Shown here piece by piece: positions 10,359 through 63,703 of a stretch of 63,703 nucleotides of DNA. Both the position numbers and the translations under genes were made by a program. The DNA is from a virus. The notes beneath the pieces are model-generated. The model saw nothing but the letters and a program-made list of their open reading frames with translations. It ran no database searches and was not told the origin of the DNA. Each line of letters begins with the position of its first letter. The stretch's first letter is position 1. Location: positions 1 through 63,703 of the IMG/VR virus record IMGVR_UViG_3300046691_000144; one strand, 5' to 3'.

Positions 10359-10478
10359 TCAGGATTCCTTTATCTTAGATGTCGGCTCTTCCGGTTCCGG
10401 CCCAAGCCGTTTAAGGCCATACCAGCAGCCGACAGCAACTCCAGCAAGCAGTCCAATAAACGCGTAAACGACACTCAT
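10359..10478 (-). CDS. very small membrane protein, 39 aa
   Basis: ATG at 10478 overlaps the previous stop (ATGA). The peptide has one strong transmembrane segment (VVYAFIGLLAGVAVGCWYGL, residues 3-22) followed by a positive and then acidic Pro-rich tail. It is the last membrane member of the cassette that starts with the serine protease at 13019. Its small size fits an accessory subunit. Confidence 0.7.
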   Translation of the reverse strand: MSVVYAFIGLLAGVAVGCWYGLKRLGPEPEEPTSKIKES

Positions 10479-10912
10479 TGCGTCACCAGTGCGGGCGGTT
10501 CTGGCTGCTTAGGCGTATCGCCGCCGCGCTGGCCTTCTTCGGCGAAGCCTGGCGACGAATCGCCACCCATGGTCATGCCGACACCAGTGCCATTAGCCTC
10601 CGCTGCATCCTGTGCGGCCTGCAGTTGGTTGGCTGTCTGCGCCGTATACGGCAGGCGGTAATAGCGCGGCTCGCCGTTGCCTGCGTCGAGGAGCACGTAG
10701 ATTGCCTTGTCGACATCGATGCGCGCACCAAGCACCTTGTATTGGCCATTGGTGGGTTGCCAGGGTGCGGCGTGGCCGAGAGTGATGAATGCGGTAGGTG
10801 CGGTGAGGATGGCGACCAGAAGGAAGGCTATGGCTTGGCGTTTGCTGCCGAACCATGTGATGGCGCCGATCGATAAGACGAATCCTAACCAGAGGGTAAT
10901 CGCTTGGGTCAT
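10475..10912 (-). CDS. membrane protein with two N-terminal transmembrane segments, 145 aa
   Basis: Two hydrophobic segments (residues about 5-22 and 27-47) are followed by a soluble domain (GQYKVLGARIDVDKAIYVLLD ... EPRYYRLPYTAQTANQLQ) and a Gly/Pro-rich tail. The start overlaps the upstream stop (ATGA). The soluble part does not match a family I know. It belongs to the coupled cassette with the ExbB/ExbD-like genes, so a role in the envelope is likely. Confidence 0.78.
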   Translation of the reverse strand: MTQAITLWLGFVLSIGAITWFGSKRQAIAFLLVAILTAPTAFITLGHAAPWQPTNGQYKVLGARIDVDKAIYVLLDAGNGEPRYYRLPYTAQTANQLQAAQDAAEANGTGVGMTMGGDSSPGFAEEGQRGGDTPKQPEPPALVTQ

Positions 10913-11178
10913 GTGATCGACCCCTCTTTGAGCTTTAGGTATGCATCAATGAGTTCTTCACGTCGCTTGAATCCAGTTTGGCGCTCGATGAGTCCATCTT
11001 CCATATTAGGAGTGTGGTCATCGCCTCCGAAGATTGCAACTTCAGCAAATTGCTCAACGCCAACCAGATTAAATCGGAAAATGTGCTTAACTGAGATCAC
11101 ACCTTCACCGCTAGGAATGTGCACGCTCATTTCGCCTGGCATATCGGCTAGGCTCTCACGCAGTTCGCTAACAAGCAT
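10909..11178 (-). CDS. small soluble hypothetical protein, 89 aa
   Basis: ATG at 11178 overlaps the TGA of the ExbD-like gene (TGATG). The protein is acidic with alternating strands (MSVHIPSGEGVISVKHIFRFNLVGVEQFAEVAIFG) and a helical C terminus, and has no signal peptide. It is the only cytoplasmic-looking product in the membrane cassette. Confidence 0.72.
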   Translation of the reverse strand: MLVSELRESLADMPGEMSVHIPSGEGVISVKHIFRFNLVGVEQFAEVAIFGGDDHTPNMEDGLIERQTGFKRREELIDAYLKLKEGSIT

Positions 11179-11717
11179 CACCCTCTCCTCTTCATCTGTT
11201 TGAAAACTTGGTTTGCCGAGTCAGCAACAACCTGACCGCCAGCCACACGAAACCGGATAGCAGTTCGCTCCTGACCATTCTTCATGATATCCAACTCGCC
11301 GTGCCACACGGTCGCGCCGTCGGCTAGACGCACATCTACGGATACCGGCATGGGTAGCGTCGTGCATGTGTAGCAGCGGACATTAATGGCATACTCGCCG
11401 TCCGGAAGGCCGCGTGTGAAGGCGGCCTCCATGTTAAGAGGAGTTGTGTCATTGGTGTTGCCGAGATCATCACGCAAAAGGCTCCACACTTTTCCGGACT
11501 TGTTGCTGTAGCCTACGGCGAAGTCGTCGGCGTAGGACACCCACAAATCAACGTCATCGTTGCCTGCTGGCCAGTTGATTGTGGCTATGAGGTTGCCGGG
11601 TTGGCTGATGGGGTCGGCTTGGGCTGTGGGGTTGACCTGTGCTAGCACCAAGACGACGAGGGCGACAAGGCCCAAGAGCATATTCATGAGAAGGTCACGT
11701 ATGAGGATTTGGGTCAT
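11178..11717 (-). CDS. ExbD/MotB-like membrane-anchored periplasmic protein, 179 aa
   Basis: A short N terminus leads into one transmembrane helix beginning I-R-D-L-L-M-N-M-L-L-G-L-V-A-L-V. The Asp at position 8 with the D-[LM]-[LM]-x-x-[LM]-L pattern is the proton-carrying signature of ExbD, TolR and MotB stators. The rest (residues 32-179) is a periplasmic beta-rich domain with DVDLWVSYADD ... GYSNKSGKVWSLLRDD ... LPDGEYAINVRCYTC, reminiscent of DUF2135/YfaP-type folds rather than the normal ExbD periplasmic domain. ATG at 11717 overlaps the stop of a 47-residue membrane gene. Together with the ExbB-like partner it should form a proton-driven stator. The assignment rests on motif and context. 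Confidence 0.68.
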   Translation of the reverse strand: MTQILIRDLLMNMLLGLVALVVLVLAQVNPTAQADPISQPGNLIATINWPAGNDDVDLWVSYADDFAVGYSNKSGKVWSLLRDDLGNTNDTTPLNMEAAFTRGLPDGEYAINVRCYTCTTLPMPVSVDVRLADGATVWHGELDIMKNGQERTAIRFRVAGGQVVADSANQVFKQMKRRG

Positions 11718-11857
11718 GACGATACCGCCATAAATACCCAAAACGCAGACAGCATCGCCGCCAGAAAAAATAAACCCCACTGTCTTTTGATGGCAAACGC
11801 TACCGACACCAACGCGTTAAATGTTGCAGATGCAAAGTATAGTGCCACCACACCCAT
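11714..11857 (-). CDS. very small double-transmembrane protein, 47 aa
   Basis: ATG at 11857 follows TCGGAGGAGGTGTG, one of the best ribosome binding sites in the window, and overlaps the stop of the ExbB-like gene (TGATG). The peptide has two hydrophobic stretches (residues 2-22 and 27-46) around a short K-R-Q turn. Its TGA overlaps the ATG of the ExbD-like gene. The tight coupling between the two stator-like genes suggests a small third subunit. Confidence 0.8.
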   Translation of the reverse strand: MGVVALYFASATFNALVSVAFAIKRQWGLFFLAAMLSAFWVFMAVSS

Positions 11858-12330
11858 CACACCTCCTCCGACTTAGCACCAACAACCCACGCGACCATCG
11901 ACACCCACAGCGCCGCAATGGCGCCCACCAGCGTCGAGCAGAACGCGACGCCCATGCCGGCAAGTAAACTTGCCGCAACGCGCTGTACGCCTTCCGCTGA
12001 GCCAAGGGAGCCTGTGTCGATGTGCTGAAGGGCAATAATGAATCCGACGACATTGCCGATCAGGCCAAGCGTCACGAGCCAGACTTCCAATCGTGCCAGA
12101 TGCTCAGTTCGTCCGAAGAAGACGGCGACAAGCCCAACCGCAGCAATGGCGGAAATACCGTAACTGATATGGCTCACATCATGTGTGAAAACGAAACTGA
12201 CGTATCCCATGACGGCGGCCCAGACGATGAGCGCAAGCCAGCAGGTGTTGAGGACGATTAGGCGGGCGGTCACCGTCGAAAAGCGTGGAAATTTGGCGTT
12301 ATGGCTAGCGGCCATCGCTGCGTTATCCAT
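11857..12330 (-). CDS. MotA/TolQ/ExbB-type proton channel protein, 157 aa
   Basis: Four hydrophobic segments are visible. The third (WLVTLGLIGNVVGFIIAL) and fourth (SLLAGMGVAFCSTLVGAIAALW) reproduce the two conserved helices of the MotA/TolQ/ExbB family, with the LGLLGTV-G and the small-residue, Thr-containing GMGVAF...TLVG patterns. ATG at 12330 overlaps the protease stop (TGATG) and follows GGGGAGGGTGAAG. At 157 residues it is shorter than cellular ExbB (over 230), lacking the large cytoplasmic loop. It is probably the proton-conducting subunit working with the ExbD-like protein. Confidence 0.8.
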   Translation of the reverse strand: MDNAAMAASHNAKFPRFSTVTARLIVLNTCWLALIVWAAVMGYVSFVFTHDVSHISYGISAIAAVGLVAVFFGRTEHLARLEVWLVTLGLIGNVVGFIIALQHIDTGSLGSAEGVQRVAASLLAGMGVAFCSTLVGAIAALWVSMVAWVVGAKSEEV

Positions 12331-13019
12331 CACTTCACCCTCCCCAATAGAGAGCAAACAACCGACGACGGCACGACCATGCTCAAGCCGATATAAGACT
12401 TGCTGTCATTCGCGCCGGGGACGCCAAGCACGCCGACGGCGATTCCGACGAGTTGGCCTTGCTCATCAAAAACAGGCCCCCCCGAATTGCCCATGATCAC
12501 GGTAATGTCGGTGACGAATGCTGACTTCCATGCGGGGAGCATTTCTCTGGGTTCTCCGGCGATCTTGCCGAATGTGGAGATGAATTCCAAACCAAGGGGA
12601 TTGCCGACGGCGGTAATGGTGTCACCGACATGAGCGGTGCGGCAAGAGAGAGTCGCGGCTGGAATGTAGGCAGCGGATCGCAGCAAGGCGATATCGTAGG
12701 TCTTGCTGGCCCACAGAACGTCTGCCGTGGTTTCCTTGCCGTCTCTCTCTTTGATCTTCACGCCAGTGGCGTCGCCGACGACGTGGGCGGCAGTGACGAT
12801 GAAGCCATTACCGATCGACACGCCGGAGCCTAGGCCGTTCTCGACAAGCACCTTGACTGTTGCCGCATCGGTGATGGGCGGCGTCTTGACGTAAGCGGCG
12901 CGCTCTGGTGTGACGGTGGATGTGATTGGTCGTGGCGTTCCCGCCAGAGAGTAGACGCCGCCAAATAGAACGGTGGCCAATGCTACAACTGCAATGCCTG
13001 CATATCTGTAATATCTCAT
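12330..13019 (-). CDS. membrane-anchored trypsin-like serine protease, 229 aa
   Basis: An N-terminal transmembrane or signal-anchor segment (residues 7-26) precedes a chymotrypsin-fold protease with TAAHVV (His79), TYDIALLR (Asp109) and MGNSGGPVF (Ser179), the complete catalytic triad of the S1C/DegP-like class without a PDZ domain. It should act in the periplasm. It is the first gene of the left early operon, directly behind an operator-controlled promoter and the leader CCACCACAGAAGAGGAGACCGCC. It is translationally coupled to the ExbB-like gene, pointing to a joint function in the envelope. Confidence 0.9.
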   Translation of the reverse strand: MRYYRYAGIAVVALATVLFGGVYSLAGTPRPITSTVTPERAAYVKTPPITDAATVKVLVENGLGSGVSIGNGFIVTAAHVVGDATGVKIKERDGKETTADVLWASKTYDIALLRSAAYIPAATLSCRTAHVGDTITAVGNPLGLEFISTFGKIAGEPREMLPAWKSAFVTDITVIMGNSGGPVFDEQGQLVGIAVGVLGVPGANDSKSYIGLSMVVPSSVVCSLLGRVK

Positions 13020-13058: not shown

Positions 13059-13087
13059 ACACTATTTCAATTTGACAAATTTGTCAA
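13059..13087 (-). promoter_or_regulatory. operator-controlled promoter of the left early operon
   Basis: On the minus strand, TTGACA (13087-13082), a 17-bp spacer and TAGTGT (13064-13059). The -35 hexamer is one half of the perfect palindrome TTGACAAATTTGTCAA at 13072-13087, a predicted repressor site. The promoter drives the serine protease gene and probably the whole operon to 5297. Confidence 0.85.
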
Positions 13088-13118: not shown

Positions 13119-13158
13119 CGAAAAAAGCCCCGCCACCGGTTAGGGTGACGGGGCTTGA
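13119..13158 (-). terminator. intrinsic terminator ending the late operon
   Basis: AAGCCCCGCCACC at 13125-13137 pairs, with one mismatch, with GGTGACGGGGCTT at 13144-13156. On the minus strand it is followed by TTTTTTCG. It lies directly after the lysis genes and just before the left early promoter, separating the two operons. Confidence 0.9.
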
Positions 13159-14916: not shown

Positions 14917-15069
14917 TGCTCCGTATGGAAGATGTCGGGATAATCGGTGGAGATGCTACAGCCCGCAAAGCACAGGGCACGCAGATATGTTAAATTATAT
15001 TGCCGGCACTCAACCAAGAGCGTATGGCTGCCTCAGCGCAATACACGTACATTAAAAGTTGGGGCTACC

Positions 15070-16125
15070 GTGAAAAAGCTTGCATTGTTCGTTCCGCAGA
15101 TCCGGCATCTTTGGGAGGATCGCATTAAGCTCATTGAGCAGCGCGACAGCCTGCACTCAGACAATGAACTGCTCAACGCAGAAGTCGGTGCGCTAAAGGA
15201 AACTCTTCAACAATACCAAAATACGCATTCACAATTGACCGAGAAAATCACTGAGCTTGGAACAAGCACACCAGAGGTGACGAAGCCTAAGGAAATGTTC
15301 TATCTCCCAAGCAGCGTCTTTTCTGGCGCCGGGAGCGATGCGTATATGACACATTCATATCCAGTCGCCTCAGATTTTTTTCATCCGTCATTCAAGGCCT
15401 TTCTGGCCTCGATCAACCATCGCTTCCAAATGCACAGGAAGTTGTGGGAATTTGCCTTCATCGAGCACAAGCTTAAGGCAGCCGGGATGCTCGCTGAGGA
15501 CAAGAGCGGTCTGTGCTTCGGCGCAGGCCAAGAACCATTACCAGCGCTCTTCGCCGCCAAGGGCTGCACTATTCACGCAACTGATGCGCCAGCGGAAATC
15601 ATCGGCGAAAAATGGACGGCGACCAAGGAATTTTCACGCGGCATCGAGGACATGAGTTACCGCGGCATGATCGACGAAGAGACGTTCTTCAAGCGCGTTT
15701 CTTATTCGACTGCTGACATGAACCACATCCCATCAGATCTGACCGACTTCGATTTCTGCTGGTCCGCCTGCTGTCTGGAACACCTCGGCAGCATCGATCT
15801 TGGACTAGAATTCATCGCCAACAGCCTGAAGACGCTTAAGATTGGCGGCATCTCGGTACAGACTACCGAGCTAAACCTTTCTTCAAGCGACGAGACCGTG
15901 GAAACGGGTGAGACCGTCCTCTATCGCCGCCGTGACCTTGAGGCATTTATCGAGCGCATGCGAGATGAAGGTCATGAGGTGGAGGCGCTGACAGTGTCGC
16001 CGCCAGCCACCCCAATAGATCACCATGTTGATGTGCCGCCATACAGCCAAAACCCGCATCTCAAATTGCTGCTCGGCCAATATGTGACGACATCTGTCGG
16101 GATCGTTATTCGCAGAGGGCGCTAG
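15070..16125 (+). CDS. SAM-dependent methyltransferase, probable lysogenic-conversion gene, 351 aa
   Basis: This is the only plus-strand gene inside the late region. The GTG at 15070 (VKKLALFV) after TTGGGGCTACC is the likely start. The frame also extends to an ATG at 14947, but those 41 residues look non-coding. A coiled coil (residues 20-65) precedes a class I methyltransferase-like core: GLCFGAGQEPLPALFAAKG (motif I), ATDAP, and DFDFCWSACCLEHLGSIDLG. Comparable enzymes occur in O-antigen/glycan gene sets of rhizobia. Its place beside the tailspike suggests modification of the phage receptor in the lysogen. Confidence 0.8.
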   Translation: MKKLALFVPQIRHLWEDRIKLIEQRDSLHSDNELLNAEVGALKETLQQYQNTHSQLTEKITELGTSTPEVTKPKEMFYLPSSVFSGAGSDAYMTHSYPVASDFFHPSFKAFLASINHRFQMHRKLWEFAFIEHKLKAAGMLAEDKSGLCFGAGQEPLPALFAAKGCTIHATDAPAEIIGEKWTATKEFSRGIEDMSYRGMIDEETFFKRVSYSTADMNHIPSDLTDFDFCWSACCLEHLGSIDLGLEFIANSLKTLKIGGISVQTTELNLSSSDETVETGETVLYRRRDLEAFIERMRDEGHEVEALTVSPPATPIDHHVDVPPYSQNPHLKLLLGQYVTTSVGIVIRRGR

Positions 16126-60599: not shown

Positions 60600-60628
60600 A
60601 CACTAGTACAATTTGACAAATTTGTCAA
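60600..60628 (-). promoter_or_regulatory. operator-controlled promoter of the right early operon
   Basis: Minus strand: TTGACA (60628-60623), 17 bp, TAGTGT (60605-60600), with TTGACAAATTTGTCAA at 60613-60628. The site lies between the divergent early operon and the 192-residue HTH gene, so one operator can control both. Confidence 0.88.
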
Positions 60629-60649: not shown

Positions 60650-61228
60650 ATGTCACGATTCTCCGATACGCTTACTGCAGAGATAAAACGCCGCGAAATC
60701 AGCGATACCATGGCAGCCGAAGAGTTCGGCTGGACAAAGCAAGCATTCAGTACATGGAAGCGCGGCGTACTGCCGCGACAACAATGGTACGGGCCGTTGT
60801 CGCGGTTTCTTGGTATTGATGTCCATGAGGTCGAAGCGCTCATCGACGAAGCACGCACAGCCACCAACCCACCAGAACCAACGGCTGGCCGCGTTACTGA
60901 TCGCAAGGACGGCCGCTTTCATTTCGACAGCATCCCTGCCGGCCGCTACGCATTCTCCGTTGACACGCGCGTTATGGAGCCTGCCCTCGTGCTTGGCGGC
61001 AAGGCTTGGGCGCAGCCCGGTATCTGGCCTCAGCCTGGAAACGACGTTATCGTGCACGCTAAAGGTGGGTCGGCATGGATCGGCCAACTTTCCGCATTGG
61101 GCGTCGGAGAGGCTACGCTCAAACGGCAGGCCGCCGATGAACTGACCGTGCGCGATGTTCTGGCCGTGCATGTCATTGTCCTTTCTGAGCGCGTTGCTGG
61201 CGGTAGCGGTGGCGGAAACAAAAAATAA
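60650..61228 (+). CDS. HTH/S24-like repressor lacking the catalytic serine, 192 aa
   Basis: An HTH (residues about 15-40, AAEEFGWTKQAFSTWKRG) is followed by an S24/LexA-like domain (residues 95-165): YAFSVDTRVMEP ... GNDVIVHAKGG ... ATLKRQ. The position of the catalytic Ser (normally D-S-M-E-P) is Val108, while the Lys is kept (Lys158). It should not cleave itself. The ATG at 60650 lies 21 bases from the operator in a nearly leaderless arrangement. It is the best candidate for the protein binding TTGACAAATTTGTCAA. Confidence 0.82.
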   Translation: MSRFSDTLTAEIKRREISDTMAAEEFGWTKQAFSTWKRGVLPRQQWYGPLSRFLGIDVHEVEALIDEARTATNPPEPTAGRVTDRKDGRFHFDSIPAGRYAFSVDTRVMEPALVLGGKAWAQPGIWPQPGNDVIVHAKGGSAWIGQLSALGVGEATLKRQAADELTVRDVLAVHVIVLSERVAGGSGGGNKK

Positions 61229-61546: not shown

Positions 61547-61690
61547 TCTTCTGGGAGGATCGCGACCTTTCGCTATAACCGCTCTTCTGACGGGGATTTC
61601 CTTTTCATATTGCCGCATAACATTGTCTCCTTATCATTGTGTCTTTGGGTCTAGCGCCCTGTCGGCTTCTTTTTGTCCGTTCACAATCAC

Positions 61691-61757
61691 CTTTTACCGC
61701 TTTACCGATTCTATGTCAACACTAAACCGGTTTTATTTTTCCACAATTTCGGTATAT
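61691..61757. promoter_or_regulatory. repressor control region, three TACCGA-type operators and a leftward promoter
   Basis: Leftward promoter: TTGACA (61719-61714), 17 bp, TAAAAG (61696-61691). Repressor binding elements: TTTACCGATTCTAT (61701-61714), ACTAAACCGGTTTTA (61721-61735) and CAATTTCGGTATA (61744-61756). They share the ACCGA/TCGGT core with those behind the repressor gene. The repressor promoter itself (TATATG at 61754) overlaps the last site. Confidence 0.65.
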
Positions 61758-61766
61758 GCAACCGGC

Positions 61767-62483
61767 ATGCAAAAGTTAGGCGAAGTAATCAGGAAGGCCC
61801 GCAGGGACCTAAAGATGACACAAACGGATTTGGCGACAGCGGTTGGCCAGAGCCAAAAGACTGTGTCTGATTGGGAAAACGACAACGTCTCTCAAATAAG
61901 GGGATGGGAAAAGGTCGCCGACGTTCTTGGTATCGATCGTGATCTTTTCATGAAGCTGATGAGCGAAGCTGTATCGATGAATCCGACCATGAAGCGTATT
62001 GCCCCGGCCGTGCGCGACTTCATGGAAAGCTCACAGACAATGCGTGTCACACCCAATATTATTGCCGATCAAATGTCTTCTTTTGGTGCTCGAGATGTTC
62101 CTGTCTATGGGCGCGCAAAAGGCGGAGAGGACGGCCTGTATCAGTTCAACGGCGAGGTGCTTGGTTGGGAAATGAGGCCGCCGATTCTTGCTGGCGTCAA
62201 AGAAGCGTATGCAATTTATGTCGACGGCGAGAGTATGTTCCCTCGCTACAAGCCAGGTGAGACGGTTTGGATTAACCCGAACATTCCGCCATCGCGGGGC
62301 GCCGACGTCATCGTGCAACTGCACCCATCCGACGAAGACGATCCGCCTCACGGATTTATCAAGGAATTCGTTGGGTGGAGCCCGAATCATCTGCGTCTTC
62401 ACCAGTGGAACCCGGTCGGTGAAATCACCTACCCTCGAGATAGGGTGAAGTCAGTTCACCCTATCGTATACTCGCAACGGTAA
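61767..62483 (+). CDS. S24-type (LexA/CI-like) repressor, 238 aa
   Basis: ATG at 61767 is used. The longer frame starting upstream overlaps the operators. HTH at residues 19-36 (QTDLATAVGQSQKTVSDWEN). The S24 peptidase domain has Ser156 in YVDGESMFPRY and Lys199 in GFIKEF, the complete dyad. A cleavage region lies before VPVYGRAKGG. It should keep the prophage silent and be inactivated by RecA-type stress. It sits between its own upstream and downstream TACCGA operators. Confidence 0.9.
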   Translation: MQKLGEVIRKARRDLKMTQTDLATAVGQSQKTVSDWENDNVSQIRGWEKVADVLGIDRDLFMKLMSEAVSMNPTMKRIAPAVRDFMESSQTMRVTPNIIADQMSSFGARDVPVYGRAKGGEDGLYQFNGEVLGWEMRPPILAGVKEAYAIYVDGESMFPRYKPGETVWINPNIPPSRGADVIVQLHPSDEDDPPHGFIKEFVGWSPNHLRLHQWNPVGEITYPRDRVKSVHPIVYSQR

Positions 62484-63112: not shown

Positions 63113-63703
63113 ATGGCAAAGAGAGCCGACACGACTGCAGCACTGATCACCTACAAGGGCTTCGGCAATGACTGGAAGTGCAACCCCGGCGGCGTGTCAT
63201 TTCAATATGAGATCGGCGCCACATACAAGATCGACAAACCGGTAGTGCGTTGCGGCGCAGGCGCTTTCCATTCGGTTATGATGCCCATGGATGCATGGAG
63301 CTACTACGGCCCGGCAACGAGCAAATTCGCCCTTACGACGGCCAGCGGCAGTATCGTTGACGATCCAGACGGCGACAGCAAAATTGCGTCTGCCCAAATC
63401 ACGATCAATGCTGAACTGCGCCTGCCTGAATTCATTCGAGCTGCGGTCAAATGGATCGTCGATGCGGCGAAGGAGAGCGTTACTTCCGGCTACCGTGCGC
63501 ATGCCGCCAGCACCGGGGACTATGCGCATGCCGCCAGCACCGGGGACTATGCGCATGCCGCCAGCACCGGGGACTATGCGCATGCCGCCAGCACCGGGGA
63601 CTATGCGCATGCCGCCAGCACCGGGGACTATGCGCATGCCGCCAGCACCGGGGACTATGCGCATGCCGCCAGCACCGGGGACTATGCGCATGCCGCCAGC
63701 ACC
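63113..63703 (+). CDS. DUF7666-like repeat protein, N-terminal part (continues at the left end of the window)
   Basis: ATG at 63113 follows CCACCACGAAGAGGAGACTGAAAC... the phage's strong leader. Residues 1-128 form the conserved domain (LITYKGFGNDWKCNPGGVSFQYEIGATY ... RCGAGAFHSVMMP ... EFIRAAVKWIVDA). From residue 129 the AHAASTGDY repeats begin and continue to the window end. The gene is completed by bases 2-469. Confidence 0.88.
   Translation, partial: MAKRADTTAALITYKGFGNDWKCNPGGVSFQYEIGATYKIDKPVVRCGAGAFHSVMMPMDAWSYYGPATSKFALTTASGSIVDDPDGDSKIASAQITINAELRLPEFIRAAVKWIVDAAKESVTSGYRAHAASTGDYAHAASTGDYAHAASTGDYAHAASTGDYAHAASTGDYAHAASTGDYAHAASTGDYAHAAST
63497..63703 (+). repeat. 27-bp tandem repeat array, right part
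   Basis: Seven complete copies and two thirds of an eighth of the 27-bp unit, all identical. The same unit begins the window. Bringing the two ends together in frame needs 8 extra bases (or 8 plus a multiple of 27). Confidence 0.97.

Follow-up and report, generated by a model that had tools for sequence, protein, structure and literature searches.

A three-gene unit resembling ExbB/ExbD-type proton motors in a 16-3-like Rhizobium phage and diverse viral relatives

Bacteria use proton-driven motors in their envelope, as in the Ton and Tol systems, flagella and Zorya. What, then, would a virus do with one? This question is raised by a gene cassette on the minus strand of the IMG/VR virus record IMGVR_UViG_3300046691_000144, all 63,703 bases of which are referred to here as the window and whose source, judged by its gene content, is a temperate virus like Rhizobium phage 16-3 that infects a soil bacterium. 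Comparison with viral and chromosomal relatives indicates that three genes of this cassette form a conserved unit, termed here the triad, which encodes an ExbB-like channel subunit, an ExbD-like subunit and a 145-residue protein. The architecture of the triad is well supported; its function is what we infer. In the order of transcription, the cassette contains the following open reading frames (ORFs):

12330..13019, minus strand: trypsin-like serine protease of the DegS/HtrA type, 229 residues, predicted to be membrane-anchored or secreted
11857..12330, minus strand: ExbB/MotA-like proton-channel subunit, 157 residues, core gene 1, almost without a cytoplasmic loop
11714..11857, minus strand: 47-residue membrane ORF, present in 0 of 35 temperate relatives
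11178..11717, minus strand: ExbD-like subunit, 179 residues, core gene 2, predicted transmembrane helix 2–28 with Asp8 and periplasmic beta-sandwich 43–159
10909..11181, minus strand: 90-residue ORF with a GTG start, present in 0 of 35 temperate relatives
10475..10912, minus strand: 145-residue protein, core gene 3, two predicted transmembrane helices and a small periplasmic beta domain
10359..10478, minus strand: 39-residue one-helix ORF, present in 4 of 35 temperate relatives

An earlier interpretation made from the letters alone (the sequence-only reading) had described these genes as one overlapping cassette, and all seven minus-strand ORFs are indeed present, with neighbours overlapping by 1 base (TGATG) or 4 bases (ATGA/GTGA). 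Since five named 16-3-like phages share this order of the main genes, the arrangement is not due to chance.

The 157-residue protein is, by profile search, a member of the MotA/TolQ/ExbB family, as had been proposed. MotA_ExbB (PF01618) fits it with an expectation value (E) of 6.2e-6 and 26.4 bits against a curated cut-off of 22.9. Three distant phage relatives reach 26.2, 22.6 and 26.8 bits, the second falling just under this cut-off, and a chromosomal relative also lies above it. In the phages, the channel subunit is mostly 137–190 residues long and has a short cytoplasmic loop. The proposed stator-type proton-path residues are conserved on both sides of the pair. In the 179-residue family, Asp8 is kept in all 90 aligned rows, which form 72 clusters at 90% identity, and the loci behind this count had been collected with patterns of the beta domain alone, not of the helix. 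In the ExbB-like protein, 85 of 90 rows have Thr and 4 have Ser at position 133; at position 93, 61 have Thr and 26, the window protein among them, have Asn. We take Asp8, Thr133 and position 93 to be the counterparts of the Asp/Thr pair of ExbB/ExbD and MotA/MotB.

For the 179-residue protein, the designation ExbD-like holds for the membrane helix with its stator-type Asp, but, by sequence, not for the periplasmic domain, which matches no ExbD or TolR profile. The structure model (mean predicted local distance difference test score, pLDDT, 89.9) consists of a single N-terminal helix at residues 2–28 and a beta sandwich at residues 43–159, in agreement with the large periplasmic beta domain expected from the sequence-only reading. 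A second-look structural alignment of this model placed 3ibz first (Z 11.6; 135 aligned, 3.8 Å), followed by 2qng (Z 11.0; 129 aligned, 3.3 Å) and 2qz7 (Z 10.4; 128 aligned, 3.5 Å), all entries of the TerD family; a radial-spoke protein came next at Z 8.8, and then entries at 6.4 and lower. ExbD and TolR were absent among the structures listed by Foldseek and by the second-look alignment. Foldseek alone gave no PDB match at E ≤ 0.001; among viral proteins, it gave one annotated 'putative tellurium resistant like protein' at 2.5e-3. At the sequence level, PF02342 (TerD) did not match the protein at E ≤ 1, no family matched it over any curated cut-off, and a profile search of solved structures returned nothing below E 0.1. 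Its distant relatives likewise gave no match to PF02472 (ExbD) at E ≤ 0.5. Homology to TerD by sequence was rejected, as the hhalign score of 17.9 lies within the shuffled range of up to 21.0. The periplasmic domain thus appears TerD-like in fold only, according to the model, and sequence kinship is unsupported.

The extent of the conserved unit emerges from viral relatives. A scan of IMG/VR yielded 254 relatives of the 179-residue family, many with metagenome names and on contigs of up to 328 kb; all counts over 80 viral loci refer to the best 80 of these 254. An ExbB-like gene upstream and a 145-residue-type gene downstream, on the same strand, accompany the 179-residue relative in 80 of 80 loci, as counted with models iterated on those very loci. 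Non-iterated models of five rows gave 88 ExbB-like and 72 third-gene matches at E < 1e-3 over all loci then collected. The gene for the 145-residue protein is kept in 34 of 35 temperate-type loci and is the last conserved gene of the cassette. Because the three genes stay together throughout, and the 47-, 90- and 39-residue ORFs occur in 0, 0 and 4 of the 35 temperate relatives, the unit is, on this co-conservation, the ExbB-like, ExbD-like and 145-residue proteins. The third component had been overlooked earlier. The sequence-only reading had instead counted the 47-residue membrane protein as a member of the complex, a candidate that is ruled out by its absence from all 35 temperate relatives; together with the 90-residue ORF, it is variable filler inserted between core genes, as judged from its distribution. 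The model of the 145-residue protein (pLDDT 81.3) shows helices at residues 2–21 and 24–43 and a small beta domain without a clear match; only OB-like small barrels were retrieved (best Z 7.4; best Foldseek E 0.095), which are uninterpretable. No TonB- or TolA-like entry is among the structures listed for it, an absence that excludes nothing.

Other genes are found around the triad in several loci. Homing-endonuclease-like genes lie between or after core genes (L003:9788-10546, L005:8408-9145, L004:8800-9342). No further neighbour family occurs in more than 10 of the 42 representatives that lie outside the temperate rhizobial group. An SbmA/BacA-like family, labelled from one scanned member (L051:4518-5540, E 1.3e-61), adjoins the triad or lies close to it in 9 of the 42 (L048, L051, L054, L059, L066, L074, L081, L087, L091), which places a peptide transporter beside the putative proton motor. 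Also near the triad are a Clp protease family (10/42), a ClpS adaptor (5/42) and a ClpA-like family (4/42), again labelled from scanned members, in L048, L051, L054, L058, L066, L072, L091 and others.

At the head of the cassette, the periplasmic serine protease with catalytic residues His79, Asp109 and Ser179 was identified correctly by the sequence-only reading. Trypsin_2 fits the 229-residue protein at E 7.9e-26, the nearest solved structures are DegS and DegP, and His79 and Ser179 are present in 40 of 40 aligned sequences, with Asp in 32 and Glu in 8 at position 109. No PDZ domain was found in it at E ≤ 1, and the chain ends with the protease domain. As the protease accompanies the triad in only 29 of the 80 viral loci, the idea that it is the general partner of the stator had to be abandoned. 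In phages phiM9 (L011) and KZY1 (L010), the stretch read contains the protease gene but no triad.

The triad also extends to named phages. Among 50,697 phage records, each of three distant queries of the 179-residue family finds 27 at E ≤ 1e-3, and the window's own sequence finds 15 at E ≤ 1. All 27 records, several of them GenBank/RefSeq duplicates, are Rhizobium or Sinorhizobium phages by name, and they comprise at least three kinds: 16-3-like temperate phages, a 68-kb N3_13 type, and phages of 150–170 kb, some of them Pootjesviridae. In the three distant phages read, an ExbB-like gene precedes and a 145-residue-type gene follows the 179-residue relative. The carriers of this three-gene unit of the proton-motor type are very diverse phages, among them the classic model 16-3; in the record of 16-3, two of the three genes have p-numbers alone, without a function.

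When such a unit would be used is suggested by the DNA in front of the cassette, in which the following elements were found:

13125..13156, minus strand: intrinsic terminator-like hairpin of 13 pairs followed by TTTT, separating the lysis genes from the cassette
13072..13087, minus strand: 16-bp palindrome TTGACAAATTTGTCAA, its minus-strand TTGACA forming the putative −35 element; one of five exact copies in the window
13059..13064, minus strand: putative −10 element TAGTGT, 17 bp after TTGACA, read from the sequence
60613..60628, strand not assigned: reference operator palindrome, between a cro-like gene (60539-60252, minus strand) and the gene of an S24-type regulator (60650-61228, plus strand)

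The exact copies of TTGACAAATTTGTCAA lie at 13072, 29961, 40975, 51284 and 60613, and on the minus strand all five show TTGACA, a spacing of 17 bp and TAnnnT; TAGTGT is common to the cassette and cro copies. The promoter of the cassette is therefore best read as a copy of the phage's cro-type operator-promoter, which agrees with the operator control claimed earlier. This arrangement is also conserved: of 34 relatives that carry the protease, some of them near-copies of one another, 25 have TTGACAAATTTGT, with at most one mismatch, between −500 and +200 relative to the start of the protease ORF, against a shuffled-window expectation of 0.05 sites. Given the shared operator-promoter and the terminator before the cassette, the unit should be repressed together with the lytic genes, and thus silent, in the lysogen, and its expression should begin early in the lytic cycle. 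Such timing accords with envelope remodelling or superinfection exclusion and argues against a role in the lysogen. A function in lysogenic conversion is likewise made unlikely by the putative operator common to the cro/S24 region. The 192-residue regulator matches no Pfam family at E ≤ 0.01, and its S24 label comes from a 48% match to the annotation of RHph_TM3_3_14B. The five identical operators would make up a regulon, and related sites are present in 16-3 (L002, L105) and TM3_3_14B (L104), some of them flanking a p070-type regulator.

The same elements bear on the proposal that the cassette is an accessory of the adjoining lysis system in temperate phages. Its position directly after the endolysin and spanin-like genes of the window, and soon after the lysozyme gene in several 16-3-group phages, would fit such a role. 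However, the terminator and a separate operator-promoter stand between the lysis genes and the cassette, and the triad of the Pootjesviridae and N3_13-type phages does not adjoin annotated lysis genes, so that we consider this explanation improbable.

A longer version of the triad, also overlooked earlier, appears to sit in alphaproteobacterial chromosomes as a separate operon. Of 385 genomes sampled from the class to which Rhizobium leguminosarum belongs, 65 match the ExbD-like profile, 55 of them at E < 1e-40; of 398 sampled from its phylum, 24 match, 16 of them at E < 1e-30, including three recurring from earlier samples (G001, G005, G366). In the chromosomal regions read, the three genes keep the same order, and the ExbB-like protein has about 204–320 residues (regions from large contigs). 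By a rough hydropathy scan, helices 2 and 3 are separated by about 77 residues in one chromosomal protein and by about 5 in the window protein. In a quick tree of 113 rows, from which 18 near-duplicate loci, the copies L106-L110, and L123 and L124 had been dropped, 26 of the 30 rows from sampled genomes form one group (Shimodaira–Hasegawa-like approximate likelihood ratio test 99); the remaining 4, from small genomes, fall among the phages and may be phage contigs. The chromosomal neighbours examined are common bacterial genes, encoding a transporter, a phosphoribosyltransferase, a kinase and a phosphoesterase, and no clear functional partner was found in 18 regions. One gene family follows the triad in at least 4 of these 18 (L154, L161, L162, L163), a lower bound owing to weak gene calling in G+C-rich regions; one member is DUF3108-like at E 8.3e-5, below the curated cut-off.

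This chromosomal version may be a housekeeping envelope system, which brings up the possibility that motor and protease protect or repair the stressed envelope in a Tol/DegS-like manner and so avert premature lysis, unrelated to other phages. The DegS/HtrA-like protease and the SbmA/BacA-like, ClpP and ClpS genes close by in some marine loci point the same way. On the other hand, a search of five named host genomes (Rhizobium, Metarhizobium, Shinella, Ensifer, Mesorhizobium), each carrying a prophage-type copy, gave that copy as the only match, so that no host system is supplemented there. We regard envelope maintenance of this kind as possible, though doubtful.

How, then, would such a motor serve the phage? 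The core can be pictured as a minimal inner-membrane motor of the ExbB/ExbD (MotA/MotB, ZorA/ZorB) kind, composed of a channel, an Asp-helix and a two-helix subunit. By analogy with the family, the proton path would run along Asp8 in the helix of the ExbD-like subunit and Thr133 in its ExbB-like partner, possibly within a 5:2 assembly, and proton passage would move the periplasmic domain of the ExbD-like subunit. In temperate rhizobial phages, a DegS-like periplasmic protease would have been added in front. Expressed from the copied operator-promoter at the start of lytic growth, the unit would alter the envelope of the infected cell in favour of the resident phage, so that a second phage is excluded or the envelope stays intact until lysis. 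Because expression is predicted to be early and lytic, because the triad is spread over temperate and probably lytic phages, and because the motor lacks the usual cytoplasmic part, we lean towards an early, proton-driven envelope device with one of these two tasks as its most likely job; superinfection exclusion as such is proposed only tentatively.

Several findings weigh against this interpretation. PF02472 does not match the 179-residue protein at E ≤ 1, the ExbB-like protein of 16-3 itself (p038) scores only 12.4 bits against MotA_ExbB, and the third protein is weakly conserved, with a mean column identity of 18%. The TTGACAAATTTGT operator is missing near the protease in 9 of the 34 protease-bearing relatives. 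No gene context pointing directly at superinfection exclusion was found, and the known immunity genes of 16-3 (immX, c) are located elsewhere. Even so, the triad offers a testable case of a virus that would power envelope work from the proton gradient, in a genetically tractable phage and laboratory strains of bacteria, and it points to an uncharacterised chromosomal system.

The assignment of the source virus is based on matches to the temperate phages RHph_TM3_3_14B and 16-3, which cover repressor C, the S24-type regulator, the cro-like gene, a sigma factor, the replication genes, the terminase and the endolysin. The lysis genes immediately precede the cassette, and nuclease and phosphohydrolase genes follow it. 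Further features of the window are:

14783-14079: endolysin, Phage_lysozyme E 5.4e-15
10357-10157: 66-residue ORF, nearly gapless after the 39-residue ORF
61623-62483: repressor C, matching RHph_TM3_3_14B and 16-3

As the 66-residue ORF and, almost gaplessly after it, a 422/437-residue gene follow the cassette, its transcript probably runs on into both. Between the lysis and tail genes, a 392-residue ORF (14947-16125, plus strand) looks methyltransferase-like by eye and is possibly a moron. Both ends of the record carry a 27-bp tandem repeat array (1-200 and 63504-63703), inside which the contig may self-close.

Set against known systems, the phage unit is familiar in outline and distinct in its parts. 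No description of a phage ExbB/ExbD-type unit was found in the open-access literature, subscription papers being outside the search, and the AP-16-3 paper mentions neither ExbB nor trypsin. Diverse non-flagellar stator relatives are described in PMC12505986, none of them in phages in the portions of that article available. With ExbB-ExbD(-TonB) and TolQ-TolR(-TolA), the unit shares the three-gene layout and a channel subunit beside a one-helix Asp subunit with a periplasmic domain. It differs in the short channel subunit, in the TerD-like beta sandwich predicted for the periplasmic domain, and in the third subunit, which has two helices and for which similarity to TonB or TolA was not found. 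The protease shares with DegS/HtrA the trypsin-like His-Asp-Ser domain and an N-terminal membrane segment, whereas it lacks a PDZ domain and replaces Asp by Glu in 8 of 40 relatives. Jumbo-phage Ter genes, for which an action against superinfecting phages has been proposed (PMC7824862), offer an analogy through the TerD-like fold of the model; the likeness lies in the fold only, with no significant sequence match to TerD.

The comparison with Zorya, whose ZorA/ZorB form a 5:2 complex in phage defence (as stated in the abstract of PMC11890865), is likewise an analogy. Both are MotA/ExbB-type units related to phages, and ZorA is the best named defence profile for the 157-residue protein (NCBIfam E 1.3e-4; PADLOC E 2.2e-5, in a scan of four window proteins), the match covering the shared helices only. 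This closeness, together with the predicted early expression, could suggest counter-defence, in which a decoy stator would block host ZorA/ZorB, or some other motor that senses the envelope, by mixing or competing with it. Yet the ZorA match stays far below the curated cut-off, at 21 bits against 500, and 157 residues stand against profiles of 383–729 positions; the unit has its own B subunit, and the triad is spread over many phages without a shown tie to Zorya hosts, which makes a decoy very improbable. In contrast to Zorya, the phage unit has no long ZorA tail, and its 179-residue protein has no ZorB-type match in PADLOC or NCBIfam at E ≤ 0.1. It is carried by phages themselves, under an operator common to lytic genes. 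Speculatively, alphaproteobacteria and their phages may share an unnamed class of ion-driven envelope motor, from which the phages stripped the cytoplasmic part and with which they close the envelope early to rivals, as a phage-side mirror of Zorya.

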